Below, piece by piece: positions 489-7,020 of a stretch of DNA of 64,000 nt (positions within the stretch are counted from its first letter, which is position 1; every line of letters begins with the position of its first letter). Source of the DNA: Candidatus Desulfofervidaceae bacterium. Lineage in GTDB: Bacteria > Desulfobacterota > Desulfofervidia > Desulfofervidales > Desulfofervidaceae. The translations under genes and the position numbers were made by a program. The stretch spans positions 1-64,000 of the forward strand of contig JAMOPI010000029.1 in the NCBI GenBank assembly GCA_027064585.1, written 5' to 3'. The notes under the pieces were generated by a model. It made no database searches, was not told the origin of the DNA, and saw only the letters and a program-made list of their open reading frames with translations.

Positions 489-719
489 TTACCCGTAGGT
501 TCCGTCAAGAACTGGGACAGTGATCGTCTGTTCAGTATATTCTTTATTTTTAATCTTATTATACAACATTTGGCTTACTTCAGGTGAAAGAACTCTTTCC
601 CCGCAAGAACAACATTCCGCATAAGAGACATTTCTTACCAAATAGAGCTTGCCTCCGATTCTTAATTCAATTTCTCCCTTTTTCTTAACCATTTCACTAT
701 GGCAAGCAGCGCATTTCAT
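489..719 (-). CDS. YgiT-type zinc finger protein (putative antitoxin)
   Basis: A 76-residue protein with two CxxC pairs: CAAC at residues 3-6, then CSCGE after a short beta-rich segment ending YLVRNVSYAEC. This is the layout of the YgiT/MqsA N-terminal zinc-binding domain. The MqsA C-terminal HTH is absent, as is usual for short YgiT-type proteins paired with DUF4258. It overlaps the upstream DUF4258 gene by 4 nt (716-719), so the two are translationally coupled. By analogy it is probably the antitoxin or regulator of the pair, but no activity can be shown from sequence. A paralogous pair lies at 36702-37243. Confidence 0.85.
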   Translation of the reverse strand: MKCAACHSEMVKKKGEIELRIGGKLYLVRNVSYAECCSCGERVLSPEVSQMLYNKIKNKEYTEQTITVPVLDGTYG

Positions 720-1027
720 AATCTCTTCCGCCTCCTTTTAAAATCTTTCTCCCATTCCTCTGGACTTAAAGTTGGGTCATAGGCTGTAATAATCCAAACA
801 GGATCAATTGAACACTGGACGTGCAAAATTCTGCCTTCTTGGGTGATTCCATAGATAAGACAACTAGGCCCATATTTATCCTCCGGATAATCTTCAATAA
901 TCTCACCTGACATTATAGCATCTTTTATTTCACTTGGCGAGATACCACGCTGTACACATCTTTCAAAAGCGTGAATAGTAAATTGGTAATCGCCTGCTTT
1001 AACTCGTTTTTTGATAAGTTCTATCAT
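716..1027 (-). CDS. DUF4258 domain protein (putative toxin)
   Basis: A 103-residue protein of the DUF4258 family. Visible hallmarks are the N-terminal FTIHAFERCVQRGIS segment, the central GEIIEDYPEDKYGPSCL strand, LHVQCSID and VWIITAYDP, ending in a basic KRRRKR tail. DUF4258 proteins are small, often encoded directly upstream of YgiT-type zinc-finger genes, and are thought to be RelE/MqsR-like toxins, although the family is not well characterised. Gene order and the 4-nt overlap with the downstream YgiT-type gene match the pair at 36702-37243. The two DUF4258 proteins are clearly homologous but diverged, so this is not a recent local duplication. Confidence 0.8.
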   Translation of the reverse strand: MIELIKKRVKAGDYQFTIHAFERCVQRGISPSEIKDAIMSGEIIEDYPEDKYGPSCLIYGITQEGRILHVQCSIDPVWIITAYDPTLSPEEWEKDFKRRRKRL

Positions 1028-1286: not shown

Positions 1287-2228
1287 CTAGTCCACATGCC
1301 TATTGGTATTTTTTGCAGATGATGATTTGGTTTTAATATGGGGAAAATTAATTTTTAAAAATTTGCGAAAAAGATTAATTCTAGGGTCTTTAACCTTTTC
1401 TTCAAGATAAGCGAAATAAAAATATCTTTTGAGCCTTCCTTCAAAATCTAATATGTTGTAGTGCTGGGAAGATTCAGAAATAGCTATTTTGGATAAGACA
1501 CAAGCTCCCCATCCTTCCTTGACTGCTGCTTTGGCACAGGCATTACAGTGGACTATAGCTCGTATTTTAACTTTATTCCAACTTAGCTTATGTTTTAACA
1601 GATAATGTTTCCAACACCAAGTAACACCTGATTCCTCCTCCCGTATAATAAAAGGAAGTTCCAAAACATCTTTTAATTTTGGTGGGCTATCATTATAATT
1701 GTATTTTTTAGGGACAATTATTACTAATGGGTCTTCTAGGAATTCTTCATACTCCACTGAAGTAGATAAGGGATTTCCTACAATACCTATATCAATATCA
1801 CGGTTGGCCAGTCCTGATAAAATAGCCGGACTTTTACCAATCCTAAAACTAATTTTTATGTTGGGATAAGCTTCCCTAAATTTGATTAAAATCTTGGGCA
1901 ACAGGTATTCTCCAAAAGTGGAGCTTGCACCTATAATTAAATCCTTTTTCTCCCTTTGGTGCAGAATTCTTATACTGTTAACCAGTTCATCATTAAGTTT
2001 CAGAAATTTTTTAGCAAAATTGTAAAACATCTCCCCAGCCTTGGTTAATTTTAAGCCACCTTGCTCCCGAATAATAAAAGTCGAATTATACATGTTTTCT
2101 AAGGCCTTTATGTGAAAACTAACAGCAGGCTGAGTAATGAATAATTTTTTAGATGCCAATGAAAAACTATCTTCCTCAACTACGGTTATAAATACCTTTG
2201 CAGAAAATAAATCTAGATACATAGTCAC
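1287..2228 (-). CDS. LysR-family transcriptional regulator
   Basis: The protein is about 313 aa. The N-terminal winged HTH is clear (FSLASKKLFITQPAVSFHI, then KALE), and the substrate-binding domain follows (GASSTFGEYLLPKIL, then PNIKISFRIGKS). I place the start at the GTG at 2228 because AAGGTGG lies about 6 nt upstream. ATG at 2222 is the alternative. A longer ATG start at 2261 would put that Shine-Dalgarno sequence inside the gene. It is divergent from the decaheme cytochrome gene with about 130 bp between them, so it is a natural candidate regulator of the cytochrome-barrel pair. The effector is unknown; C-terminal cysteines (CNACAKA) are notable. Confidence 0.9.
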   Translation of the reverse strand: MTMYLDLFSAKVFITVVEEDSFSLASKKLFITQPAVSFHIKALENMYNSTFIIREQGGLKLTKAGEMFYNFAKKFLKLNDELVNSIRILHQREKKDLIIGASSTFGEYLLPKILIKFREAYPNIKISFRIGKSPAILSGLANRDIDIGIVGNPLSTSVEYEEFLEDPLVIIVPKKYNYNDSPPKLKDVLELPFIIREEESGVTWCWKHYLLKHKLSWNKVKIRAIVHCNACAKAAVKEGWGACVLSKIAISESSQHYNILDFEGRLKRYFYFAYLEEKVKDPRINLFRKFLKINFPHIKTKSSSAKNTNRHVD

Positions 2229-2271
2229 TTTATACCACCTTTTGACGTAAATGTAAATCACAACAAAAATT

Positions 2272-2287: not shown

Positions 2288-2357
2288 TATTTTCAATTGG
2301 ACTTTTGAAAGAAACTTGTGATAGAAGAAGATTGACTACATGAGAGGAGGGGAGAAA

Positions 2358-3326
2358 ATGGGCAAGTGTAATGTATGGAAGATTGGTAGTCTTTGTTTTG
2401 GGTTGATGTTTCTAGGTATGCTGGCTTGTCAAAGACCTTTTTTAAAGACTTCAACTCTTCCTACTATTCCTGGAGCTACTTATGTTGGGGATAAAACCTG
2501 CTTGGATTGCCATGAAGATGTAGTTTCAGCTTTTAAGAACACAGCTCACGGGAAGATTGCTGACTTTGAAGTGATAGGTAAAAAGGGTTGTGAGTCTTGT
2601 CATGGGCCCGGGAGCTTGCATGCTGAAGAAGGGGATGTTTCTAAAATATTAAGCTTTAAAAATCTTTCACCTTCAGAGGCCTCTAGTATCTGTCTTAGGT
2701 GTCATAAACAAGACTCAGAGTTAATGGACTGGTGGGGAAGTATGCACGCCAAAACCGGTGTGGGTTGTACATCCTGTCATGAAATCCATAAGAAAAAGGC
2801 TATTGTTATTACCCATCGTAGCCCGGCTGAGCCACAGCGGGCAAGCGTTTCTAAAGTCAGTTTGAAGGCCCCTGAGCCGGAGCTATGTTTTAAATGTCAC
2901 CGTGACATTCAGGCCCGCGTAAATTATCCCTCTCACCATCCTGTAAAGGAAGGAAAGATGAAATGTTCTGACTGTCATAATGTTCATAGTGGAGTAGTGA
3001 ATGGCTTAAAAACAGAAGAAAGGCTTAATGACCTTTGTTTTAATTGTCACTCAGATAAGCAAGGCCCTTTTACCTTTGAACATGAGCCAGTGGTAGAAGA
3101 TTGCACTATTTGTCATGAGCCTCATGGGACCGTAGCCAACAATCTGCTCAAGGTGAATGAACCTTTCCTTTGCTTACAATGCCATCATGTCCATTTTCAA
3201 ATCAATCATCATGAAGACGTAGCTATGACCGCCGCTCTGCGTTGCACCCAGTGTCATCCTCAAATTCATGGAGGTGATTATCCATCTGTTACAACTCCAG
3301 GTGGCGGTGATTCCCTAATGAGATAA
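2358..3326 (+). CDS. Decaheme c-type cytochrome, DmsE/MtrA type
   Basis: The protein is about 322 aa with ten CxxCH heme motifs: CLDCH, CESCH, CLRCH, CTSCH, CFKCH, CSDCH, CFNCH, CTICH, CLQCH and CTQCH. Extra histidines (e.g. HHPV, HHVHF, NHHE) are available as distal ligands. Ten hemes in about 300 residues is the size and layout of MtrA/DmsE cytochromes that plug an outer-membrane barrel. The N-terminus has a hydrophobic segment ending GMLAC, a possible lipobox, so it may be a lipoprotein. ATG 2358 is chosen because GAGGAGGGG precedes it; an in-frame ATG at 2340 lies upstream of that site. The barrel gene starts 43 nt downstream, strongly suggesting a porin-cytochrome conduit. Confidence 0.93.
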   Translation: MGKCNVWKIGSLCFGLMFLGMLACQRPFLKTSTLPTIPGATYVGDKTCLDCHEDVVSAFKNTAHGKIADFEVIGKKGCESCHGPGSLHAEEGDVSKILSFKNLSPSEASSICLRCHKQDSELMDWWGSMHAKTGVGCTSCHEIHKKKAIVITHRSPAEPQRASVSKVSLKAPEPELCFKCHRDIQARVNYPSHHPVKEGKMKCSDCHNVHSGVVNGLKTEERLNDLCFNCHSDKQGPFTFEHEPVVEDCTICHEPHGTVANNLLKVNEPFLCLQCHHVHFQINHHEDVAMTAALRCTQCHPQIHGGDYPSVTTPGGGDSLMR

Positions 3327-3353: not shown

Positions 3354-3369
3354 GGGGGGGGGAGAGATA
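3354..3369 (+). promoter_or_regulatory. Ribosome-binding site containing a run of nine G
   Basis: The Shine-Dalgarno region of the barrel gene is a tract of nine consecutive G (3354-3362) followed by AGAGATA and the ATG at 3370. Just upstream, GAGATAAAAATTTTT occurs twice in tandem (3320-3334 and 3337-3351), the first overlapping the cytochrome stop codon. A poly-G tract at the ribosome-binding site can slip in length and so change translation, but whether it does here is unknown. Confidence 0.6.
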
Positions 3370-5628
3370 ATGAAAGTGAGATGTTTGATATCATTGGTTT
3401 TAATTATGGTGGTGATGGTCTTTGGGCTTTCTTGGAATGCTTGGGCAGGCGAGGATACAGAAACCACTTTTAATGGGAAGGCCAAGATAGGCATTCATTT
3501 TGCACCTGTAGATGATTACAAAGGAAGAGTGGGAGAATTTGAATCCCTTACCAGTAATCCCAAACCCTATGTGGAAGCCATTGTGGAAGGAAAGAAAAAT
3601 GGGATAGCTGCTTCTGGTTATGCGCATTATTGGGATGACGACGAACAGATGTATGGAGCAGATTTGGACTTTAGGAGATATTTTAGGACTGACTTTGAAT
3701 ATAATAAGTTCATGCACCATTTAGACCATGATCCACTGGTTAATATTACGGGTGATTTAGGAAAGGTAATAAAACACGATTATGACCCTAACCATGACTA
3801 CATTATTAATCGCACAGAGATAAAGAGTCATACGCAGGTCATTTTTCCTAGTATTCCTTCTTTAAAGGCGGATTTTAATTATCGGGGGGAGATGAGGAGT
3901 GGTCATCGTCAGGCTATTGCCTTTTCTATGTGTGCTCGCTGCCATGTGATGGGTTATGGAAAGGGTATAAACCAAAGGATGGATGATTATGGTATAAAGC
4001 TTACCCACAGGAACAAATTATTCACCGTGGTCTATAACTTTTTCTATCGGATATTTAGGGAGCATGAACCTGCCCCAGAAGCAGATTATGTCCTGTCAGG
4101 TGACTATGACCCTGCCCAATATATTCCCAAATTATTGGGATGGCAGAAGAAGAATGGAAACGTAGAGCCTTACAATACTAATAGGGTTCTGTATCCTATT
4201 TATAATGCTTATCAGGTTGATGGTGAGTGGAAAAGCAATGCCTCTATGGGCAGACTTCCTTTTGATGCCGTCCCTGAGGTGAAAAAATTGAGAAATAGCC
4301 TCAAGGTAAGAGCTGACCTTCCTTATGAGACCACGGTTTATATGGGAGGGGCATATTCTTCTGTAAGTAACGAAAACAATGGAGCGGATCAGCAATTTGC
4401 TAGTTATGACTTAAGGTTTTCCAATCACTTCTTAAAACCTCTAAGCTTTACTGGTTTCTTCCGCTATGAATGGATTGATAATGATGATATTGAAAGTATC
4501 TGGGCAGATACACTCTCCAACTATATTACTCCTACCAGATTTCAGGGAACCGTGCCTCCAGGTATTGCAGCCCTTGGATATACCTCTCTTTATGACTGGT
4601 ATTGGGATATAGCTACGGCCCAAATAACCAATTCTGCCCTCTCTCGTAAGGTTTATACCTTTGGTTTTGATGTGAGCATGCCCTTACCTCTGCGCAGTTT
4701 GGTTAAGCTTTCTTATGAAAGGGAGGATATTGATCGTGCTCATTTTGAGACAGGCTCAACCATTAAAAACGAATGGAGGGTATTTTTAAGGTCCCGGCCC
4801 ATAAGGGATGTGAGTTTAAGAGGGGAATTCAAGTATGACTATATCTCCAATCCGTTTACCAATATCCGTGCTGCTGGTGAATCTCCTATGCCTTCAAGTT
4901 ATGCAGGTCTTCCCCAGGGCTATGTCTTGGGAATAGCAAATCCCAACCTAAGGACAGTAGACCTTTCCAATCAGCCCAATAGGATTTATGCCGTCAATGC
5001 CCAACTTTCTTGGAGAGCTTTGGCTAAGCTCTTTCTTTCCTTAAATGTAGACTATACACACAGCCTGAATGGAGATGTGGGTTGGGATGAAGAGTTGATT
5101 GTGCCCACTTTTAATGTAAATTATACCCTTTCACCAAAGCTTAGCCTAACCGCTGCCTATGGTTATCAGTGGATGGATTACGAAACTGCCTTTGTTATTC
5201 CAGCAATGGCATTGGGAACTGGATTATATAAGTATGATTTTGGACACCATGAAAGAAAGGAGAATTACGATGGCCGTGTCCACTTTATCATGTTGGGATT
5301 TGATTCTCCCTTGACCGAGAGATTCCGGGTATATGGTAATGCTACTTTTAATTTGAGTAGGGCCAGCTTTAATTGTGATGATTTGGGCGAACTAGAAGAA
5401 ATGGGGACAGAGCACTTTCATGAATGGCTGGGTGACATTGATGAATATTCTCAGTTACATATGGAGCAATATGAGATAAATCTGGGTGCTAGTTATCAAT
5501 TGACAAAAAGCCTGGCCCTTTCTGCCTCTATGAATTATTACGACTTCAATGATGTGGGAAAATACCTCTATGACCAGAGTGGTGAGGCTTGGGTAACTAC
5601 CTTAGCCATAAGCTGGAATGGTTTCTAA
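3370..5628 (+). CDS. MtrB/PioB-like outer-membrane beta-barrel protein with a CxxCH motif
   Basis: A 752-aa protein with a signal peptide (hydrophobic stretch to AWA, cleavage near residue 26). A long series of alternating amphipathic strands with many Tyr/Asp turns ends in Trp-Asn-Gly-Phe, a terminal aromatic residue typical of outer-membrane barrels. Position directly after a decaheme cytochrome and overall length match the MtrB/PioB family, which sheathes an MtrA-type cytochrome and carries electrons across the outer membrane. Unusually, a complete heme-binding motif CARCH lies at residues 188-192 (nt 3931-3945), in the N-terminal part before the repetitive strands. No MtrC-like extracellular cytochrome is encoded nearby. 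The exact subfamily is inferred from context, not from an alignment. Confidence 0.8.
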   Translation: MKVRCLISLVLIMVVMVFGLSWNAWAGEDTETTFNGKAKIGIHFAPVDDYKGRVGEFESLTSNPKPYVEAIVEGKKNGIAASGYAHYWDDDEQMYGADLDFRRYFRTDFEYNKFMHHLDHDPLVNITGDLGKVIKHDYDPNHDYIINRTEIKSHTQVIFPSIPSLKADFNYRGEMRSGHRQAIAFSMCARCHVMGYGKGINQRMDDYGIKLTHRNKLFTVVYNFFYRIFREHEPAPEADYVLSGDYDPAQYIPKLLGWQKKNGNVEPYNTNRVLYPIYNAYQVDGEWKSNASMGRLPFDAVPEVKKLRNSLKVRADLPYETTVYMGGAYSSVSNENNGADQQFASYDLRFSNHFLKPLSFTGFFRYEWIDNDDIESIWADTLSNYITPTRFQGTVPPGIAALGYTSLYDWYWDIATAQITNSALSRKVYTFGFDVSMPLPLRSLVKLSYEREDIDRAHFETGSTIKNEWRVFLRSRPIRDVSLRGEFKYDYISNPFTNIRAAGESPMPSSYAGLPQGYVLGIANPNLRTVDLSNQPNRIYAVNAQLSWRALAKLFLSLNVDYTHSLNGDVGWDEELIVPTFNVNYTLSPKLSLTAAYGYQWMDYETAFVIPAMALGTGLYKYDFGHHERKENYDGRVHFIMLGFDSPLTERFRVYGNATFNLSRASFNCDDLGELEEMGTEHFHEWLGDIDEYSQLHMEQYEINLGASYQLTKSLALSASMNYYDFNDVGKYLYDQSGEAWVTTLAISWNGF

Positions 5629-5784: not shown

Positions 5785-7020
5785 TTAAAGCTGCAGCTCA
5801 TAGCGTTGTCTAAAGAGTTGTAATAATTCATATTGTCTCGCTTTCAATTCAGGGACGCCTTTACGCCAGCGGCCATTTTCTAGACGCTTAAACTGTAAAT
5901 ACACATTTATTTCCAACACTTCAGGAGACTGGAAGTAACCTCCAAGATTTATCCTGATGCGTTCTATCTGTCTATTTATATTTTCTACCAAATTGGTGGT
6001 GTAAAGGAACTTTCTTAGCTGTTCAGGATACTTAAAGAAGGCCAAATAATGTTCGGCTCTTTGTTTGAGATAGCCTATGAAGGCAGGATATTTATTTTCA
6101 TACCTTTCACATAAAGCTAAAAACTCATTTAAAGCTGTTTCAAAATCATAAGAAGCAAAACGCAATTTCTTTAACTCATAATTAAAAGTTTTTGCATCTT
6201 TCTTACCCATATTTTTTCGGACATTTCTTTGTAAGTGGACATAGCAGATTTGATGGTCTGCCTTTGGGAACAGGGTTTTAAAGGCAGAAATGAGGCCTGG
6301 GAAATCATCAGAAACGACAAGGACAACTTTGTTAAGACCTCTATTAATTAAATCATTAAGAATATGTAACCATTTTTCTTTTGTTTCTGCTCCTTCTATG
6401 ATGTAAAAACCTATAGGTATCTTTTTACCTTCGTTACTTATAGCGGCGATGACATAAAGACAGATATTTTTAGTCCTGCCTTTAATTTTCATGCGGGTAT
6501 GATATGCATCTATAAAAAGGGCAAAGAGTTCTGAAGGCAACTGCTGATTTTTAAAATCTTCTACCTTAATCATTAAATCCTGTTTAATTTTTGTAAGTTC
6601 TGCTTTAGAATAAGGCAGGTTAAGGGAATTAAAGAAGCTGTCCAGGAAAGCATCGGAATAACCGTTAGACATAAGGGCCTTTAAGAGTTCTGAATAAGAG
6701 GGATGGGTTCTCTGGTAAGGTGGAAGTAAAAGATGTGGTCTAAATTGAGCTGAGCGAACCCTTGGCACAGATAAACTTAATTCTCCTACAGATGTGGCCA
6801 GGTGACGATCATAATAGCCATTAGCCTTATCTTTGGTTTTTCCACTTTCTTGAAGATTTTGAAGAAAAATTTCTCTTTCAGAGAGCATTATTTGGTTATA
6901 GAGCTGTTCTAGTAATGTAGTCAATGCCATAAGGTAAGGATGATTATTTTGGCTATGAAAGTGATCAGAAACAAATTTTTGGACTATTTTTTCAATAGTT
7001 TCTTTGTCTAACATAAGCAC
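5785..7020 (-). CDS. IS256-family (mutator-type) transposase
   Basis: A 411-aa protein of the normal length for IS256/Mutator transposases. The DDE residues sit in the expected settings: Asp in FALFIDAYHTRMK, Asp in VVLVVSDDFPGL, and Glu in TTNLVENINRQIER. The upstream CxxH-like signature appears as QICYVHLQRNVR. ATG 7020 is preceded by AGGAGGTG, a strong ribosome-binding site. The reading frame is uninterrupted, so the enzyme is probably functional and the insertion fairly recent. The substitutions in the first Asp motif (DAYH rather than the common DATY) are mild. Confidence 0.95.
   Translation of the reverse strand: MLMLDKETIEKIVQKFVSDHFHSQNNHPYLMALTTLLEQLYNQIMLSEREIFLQNLQESGKTKDKANGYYDRHLATSVGELSLSVPRVRSAQFRPHLLLPPYQRTHPSYSELLKALMSNGYSDAFLDSFFNSLNLPYSKAELTKIKQDLMIKVEDFKNQQLPSELFALFIDAYHTRMKIKGRTKNICLYVIAAISNEGKKIPIGFYIIEGAETKEKWLHILNDLINRGLNKVVLVVSDDFPGLISAFKTLFPKADHQICYVHLQRNVRKNMGKKDAKTFNYELKKLRFASYDFETALNEFLALCERYENKYPAFIGYLKQRAEHYLAFFKYPEQLRKFLYTTNLVENINRQIERIRINLGGYFQSPEVLEINVYLQFKRLENGRWRKGVPELKARQYELLQLFRQRYELQL

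Follow-up and report, generated by a model that had tools for sequence, protein, structure and literature searches.

Does the barrel of an outer-membrane electron conduit carry a heme of its own? The question is raised by a locus of a Candidatus Desulfofervidaceae bacterium in which an MtrB/PioB-type barrel gene lies beside the gene for a decaheme cytochrome (Table 1). A sequence-only reading of the 64,000-nucleotide stretch analysed here (the window; contig JAMOPI010000029.1) had noted CARCH at residues 188–192 of this barrel and proposed that the barrel is itself a cytochrome. The motif is present in the sequence. The mature barrel, from about residue 27, contains three cysteines (188, 191 and 669), and a CxxCH arose in 0.00045 of 20,000 shuffles of this mature protein. 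Ten CxxCH are found in the adjacent decaheme ORF; outside the conduit genes, the sole CxxCH in the 64 kb, among open stretches of at least 60 codons, lies in one 82-codon stretch on the minus strand.

Table 1 Features of the conduit locus in the 64-kb window (positions are those of the window)
Feature	Position	Strand	Basis
MtrB/PioB-type 26-strand outer-membrane barrel, OmcL/GSU2204 family	3370–5628	+	752 aa; NF041027, PF11854, AlphaFold model
CARCH codons, residues 188–192, putative heme c attachment site	3931–3945	+	53/53 homologues; model
Invariant His116, possible but unspecific candidate for second axial ligand	3715–3717	+	Alignment A1
Loop residues 614–623, Sec in most relatives; Sec/Cys absent here	5209–5238	+	Alignment, model
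Cys669, start of next surface loop after Sec-site loop	5374–5376	+	Sequence, model
Decaheme c-type cytochrome, OmcK/GSU2203 family, MtrA/DmsE-like	2340–3326	+	NF041028, TIGR03508, MtrA 6r2q_A
Divergent LysR-type regulator	1287–2261	-	Best model NF040786, under cut-off
Mutator-family transposase, directly downstream of conduit genes	5785–7020	-	
82-codon open stretch with one CxxCH	492–737	-	

The gene pair belongs to the OmcKL families

The barrel belongs to an already catalogued family; the CXXCH was noted by the curators and forms part of the family name. It scored 396 bits (cut-off 350) against NF041027, 'GSU2204 family CXXCH-containing (seleno)protein', with its CXXCH at the family position; the bracketed 'seleno' marks selenocysteine (Sec) as optional. 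PF11854 matched at 52.9 bits (gathering cut-off 23), and TIGR03509 at 35.1 bits, below its cut-off of 240.05. The decaheme protein matched NF041028 (GSU2203 family; 403 bits, cut-off 325), TIGR03508 (DmsE family; 240.5 bits, cut-off 192.2) and MtrA (6r2q_A; E 2.6e-43).

The same two curated families contain the OmcKL pair (GSU2203/GSU2204 in Geobacter sulfurreducens; HS1_RS02760/02765 in Ca. Desulfofervidus auxilii), from which the window barrel differs in having no Sec codon. The accessible part of PMC4070692 names GSU2203 as OmcK, tables GSU2204 as 'cytochrome c family protein, putative' and reports both as upregulated on hematite and magnetite. PMC10553843 describes a conduit made of OmcK/OmcL for both Geobacter and Ca. 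Desulfofervidus auxilii, with OmcL as the porin, OmcK as the cytochrome and no additional adjacent periplasmic cytochrome; it also gives OmcKL expression as four-fold over OetABI in a partner of methane-oxidizing archaea and proposes cytochrome filaments as partners. OmcK is placed extracellularly in that text; its resemblance to MtrA in sequence points instead to a wire within the barrel. Neither the CxxCH nor the Sec of the barrel is mentioned in the portions of these two papers that were covered, and two reviews list, in their accessible parts, an MtrB/PioB selenoprotein with the Sec location not given.

The CxxCH is constant across homologues

A profile search with NF041027 of 395 genomes of the window's phylum gave matches in 90, above the cut-off in 39. 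The 53 loci that scored at least 181 bits and spanned the motif, the window's own genome included, formed a first set, and all 53 carried C-x-x-C-H in a single alignment column; NF041027 was itself built from CXXCH proteins, the motif being a small fraction of its 580 positions. No orthologue lacking the motif was thus seen in this set, and such constancy indicates that the window CARCH is no chance quirk of one protein. Among 13 outsider loci ranked lower in the same list, one had CxxCH (L058), one CxxxCH (L062) and 11 no Cys at this place. In a second collection, drawn with a profile built on eight close relatives and having several genomes in common with the first set, the motif was present in 23 of 24 loci, the remaining one being truncated before it; the bearers included metagenome-bin records labelled, as given, Armatimonadota, Acidobacteria and Arcobacter.

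C188, C191 and H192 make up three of the nine invariant columns among homologues that are 22–29% identical to the window protein. The middle residues of the motif vary (SA, SG, TP, LA, GG, AR, SQ), as they do in heme sites, and in two relatives (L049 and L051) the mature barrel has no Cys beyond the CxxCH. A tree was built by a quick method from 50 barrels with the motif and 11 without (61 in all), with L062 and L012 on long branches; on it the motif states required two changes. The divergent L062 barrel has CxxxCH at the motif site, and its partner decaheme starts with a CxxxCH heme site as well.

The L062 barrel (G243:C14) contains an N-terminal CTQCH at residues 66–70 as well as its loop CTTNCH at 230–235, perhaps giving two hemes on one barrel. 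The decahemes of L057–L062 and L067 likewise have CxxxCH as their first heme site, and a plain CxxCH count gives nine. This tenth site in the apparently nine-heme partners of the heme-less sister clade rules out the idea that a heme moved from decaheme to barrel.

Conservation did not single out a second axial ligand. His116 is invariant (32/32) in alignment A1, yet it is present in 10 of 11 heme-less barrels and was rejected as a heme-specific ligand; comparison with these 11 barrels yielded no second ligand particular to the heme-type barrels.

The motif is predicted to lie in a surface loop

An AlphaFold model of the window barrel (pLDDT 77; 32 sequences) showed 26 main strands by manual count from DSSP output, preceded by an N-terminal hydrophobic helix (residues 2–25), in line with a CxxCH in an exported protein. 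Its best solved match was MtrB (6r2q_B; Z 27.8 over 574 residues), with the next entry at 18.2, in a match list in which a family's absence was not counted as evidence. A PDB sequence search with family profile A1 returned no matches, so that MtrB was found through fold alone. CARCH forms the tip of a hairpin between strands 7 and 8 (residues 165–185 and 192–214), and the turns at the opposite end are short; pLDDT is below 50 at residues 187–190 of this heme-free model. In a model of the Sec-type relative L033 (pLDDT 72.8), the equivalent loop holds the CxxCH (240–244), of which 241–244 form a helical turn, and Sec 649 lies on the same side in a loop between strands 624–646 and 657–680. Burial of the motif in a strand, which would have spoken against heme ligation, was looked for in two models, and in both the motif was in a loop.

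The periplasmic turns of MtrB are tight; its extracellular loops are long and constrict the outer opening to about 15 Å (PMC7198977). By homology to MtrB, a motif that follows an odd-numbered strand and precedes an even-numbered one falls on the surface-loop side, and the CxxCH and Sec loops of the models are thus most likely both outward-facing. For the same reason, a link from the barrel to periplasmic donors, one role that the sequence-only reading had offered for the heme, appears unlikely. The two loops follow strands 7 and 21 of 26, about half a barrel apart by strand count.

Comparison with solved and described systems set the motif apart. The window pair shares barrel fold and decaheme partner with MtrCAB of Shewanella (6r2q), in which MtrC sits on top of MtrAB; the window has no gene for such a protein. 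The expectation that MtrB has a CxxC lacking a complete heme site at the same place did not hold: MtrB carries its CxxC near the N terminus (C42/C45; PMC12175506), and the stretch of MtrB that matches the CARCH loop, reached via L065, contains no Cys, which rules out CARCH as the counterpart of the MtrB CxxC. PioAB and MtoAB are, like the window pair, two-part systems of barrel and decaheme, and the decaheme alone is described as heme-bearing in the part of PMC6831781 available. The fused cytochrome–porin Cyc2 resembles the window barrel in having a single CxxCH in an outer-membrane barrel protein. Cyc2, however, has 16 strands and a separate N-terminal periplasmic cytochrome domain (PMC8406198, in part), as opposed to 26 strands and a motif between barrel strands with no such N-terminal domain, and the AXPXFAR signature directly before the Cyc2 CXXCH (same portion) is absent from the window barrel, which reads RQAIAFSM there. 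A search of the literature, partial in that subscription papers lay mostly outside it, found no description of a heme on an MtrB-type barrel or family member.

Most relatives have selenocysteine in a second loop

An in-frame TGA falls in one column about 145 residues before the end in 36 barrel ORFs of the first set, including one fragment that lacks the motif; such genes, annotated without Sec decoding, would stop about 145 residues early. On the tree, 35 of the 50 motif-bearing barrels had TGA in this column, two Cys and one Gly; the rest, to which the window protein belongs together with L012 and the short clade L049–L056, had another residue or a gap. The states of the column required four changes. 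The window barrel has Leu/Gly at the aligned place and no in-frame UGA. In L002–L048 and L070–L092 the Sec column mostly belongs to a C-x6-U motif (YCIAxYDGU) in a predicted surface loop.

A hairpin 16–32 nt 3′ of the TGA paired in 88% of cells in a group of 27 distinct sequences and in 92% in a group of 8 distinct ones, compared with 6–73% when slid by 1–3 bases, and one pair showed GC/AT/CG exchange. Because the groups were picked for best fit, and because the codons in this stretch are conserved themselves, we take the hairpin as support, not proof. A tRNA-Sec match above the cut-off was found in 32 of 34 genomes, including the window's own at 79 bits; RF01852 also weakly matches other tRNAs and all 14 controls, so high scores alone count. 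The strong match in the window genome rules out a want of tRNA-Sec as the reason for the missing Sec. Sec as a substitute for a Cys of the CxxCH was also ruled out, since the UGA lies about 410 residues further on.

The CxxCH is retained where Sec is lost. In the window barrel (Cys669) and in the Sec-less L012 (residue 698), the following surface loop contains a Cys that might take over from the lost Sec. The short Sec-less clade L049–L056 has a conserved His (mostly KTYH) at the Sec column, a possible alternative ligand. In one genome, a C-terminal piece of a Sec-type barrel (L013; G017:C34) lies beside the complete Sec-less barrel L012. In the literature searched, which was available in part, we found neither an outward position for heme site and Sec, nor a CxxCH kept constant despite Sec loss, nor a Sec-less OmcL member like the window barrel.

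In many loci the decaheme is the sole multiheme ORF

Of 53 loci, 52 have a decaheme ORF immediately 5′ of the barrel; the remaining one is cut by its contig. In long-type loci, with up to 4–5 kb of flank, the decaheme was the sole ORF with at least three CxxCH in 30 of 30 (23 + 7; a few genomes are shared and some loci are cut by contig ends). In the short clade, additional multiheme ORFs with up to 20 motifs were found in 6 of 7 loci, the cut locus L052 being excluded; this contrast between long and short clades counts as one event on the tree. One long Sec-type member, L002, has a 12-motif ORF 129 bases downstream. A single PF11854 barrel and a single paired-CXXCH protein are encoded in the window's genome, both at this locus, along with some 8-motif proteins elsewhere.

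No MtrC-like gene over the decaheme/barrel pair is present within the window. The statement that no extracellular cytochrome is encoded nearby stands for the window, which begins with the contig at base 1 and includes 2.3 kb of sequence 5′ of the conduit operon. The LysR regulator scored 224.5 bits against NF040786, a selenium-metabolism LysR model with a cut-off of 250, so that a selenium-metabolism-like regulator, albeit below the cut-off, adjoins a Sec-less barrel gene. The ribosome-binding region ahead of the barrel gene holds a run of nine G (3354–3362) that follows repeated GAGATAAAAATTTTT; variation in the length of this run could tune translation of the barrel.

A proposed heme-bearing barrel and competing readings

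Heme c attachment takes place in the periplasm, and the barrel must transit there unfolded. We propose, as a reading somewhat more likely than not, a self-capped conduit of the OmcKL type in which the barrel is a monoheme c-type cytochrome whose covalent surface heme trades electrons with the decaheme's final heme. By homology to MtrAB, the OmcK-like decaheme protein would sit inside the 26-strand barrel. One heme would be attached to CARCH during periplasmic transit and, after insertion, would lie in surface loop 4 at the outer pore mouth, a position that we infer to be near the decaheme exit heme. Electrons would run along the decaheme, with the barrel heme as the last (or first) station outside, handing them between the wire and the outside; which way they flow, the second ligand of the iron and the substrate all belong to the proposal. 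Minerals, filaments or partner cells would be fitting exchange partners for a surface heme. Covalent attachment itself is probable, judged from the invariant Cys, Cys and His and their predicted loop position, and to that extent the earlier suggestion of a barrel cytochrome is supported; should the heme be attached, it very probably faces outward.

With an outer barrel heme, the pair may be able to dispense with an MtrC-like cytochrome in many hosts. The two-gene loci are consistent with the earlier idea that the barrel heme replaces part of an extracellular cytochrome; the extra multiheme ORFs in six of seven short-clade loci and the 12-heme ORF of L002 count against it, and the cap idea is not universal. 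A bolder version is possible though doubtful: OmcL-type barrels would be distinct self-terminating conduits in which one surface-loop heme and, in most members, a Sec in a loop on the far side of the pore mouth jointly form an extracellular terminal site on the barrel, with Sec catalytic or even axial, such that two genes do the three-gene job of MtrCAB. The Sec-free window member would then work with heme alone, possibly helped by Cys669.

A reading of the CxxCH as a thiol/disulfide or metal site, with a C188–C191 disulfide fixing the loop or the site serving as a redox switch, perhaps in concert with the Sec of the other loop, is unlikely. The 35 of 50 motif-bearing barrels with Sec in a same-side loop would fit it, as would the failure to find a heme-specific second ligand and the disulfide or redox-switch role proposed for MtrB C42 (PMC12175506, in part). 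A disulfide, however, needs neither an invariant His nor a fixed CxxCH spacing with free middle residues, the motif is kept in every Sec-less clade, and L062 uses a CxxxCH that matches its own decaheme.

A heme that is attached but periplasmic, as an entry heme or a mere mark of folding or assembly, is improbable. Such a heme would be in keeping with periplasmic attachment to a barrel that passes unfolded, and barrel orientation is known here by homology alone; against it, the motif (strands 7/8) and Sec (strands 21/22) are both on the long-loop side and the opposite turns are short. Less probable still is a relic from a heme-bearing ancestor, idle in the window member, for although this protein and L012 are Sec-less on long branches and a transposase follows the conduit genes directly, the CxxCH and decaheme partner are intact, the frame is open and both Sec-less relatives on that branch retain C, C and H.

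Implications for the OmcKL family

The Sec loop, predicted on the side of the heme loop, offers a second, independent handle on OmcL barrels. How electrons leave conduits that lack an MtrC-like cap is a question to which an outer heme on the barrel, if true, would be a direct answer for OmcKL, and the 'insulating sheath' would then be a redox protein throughout a family.
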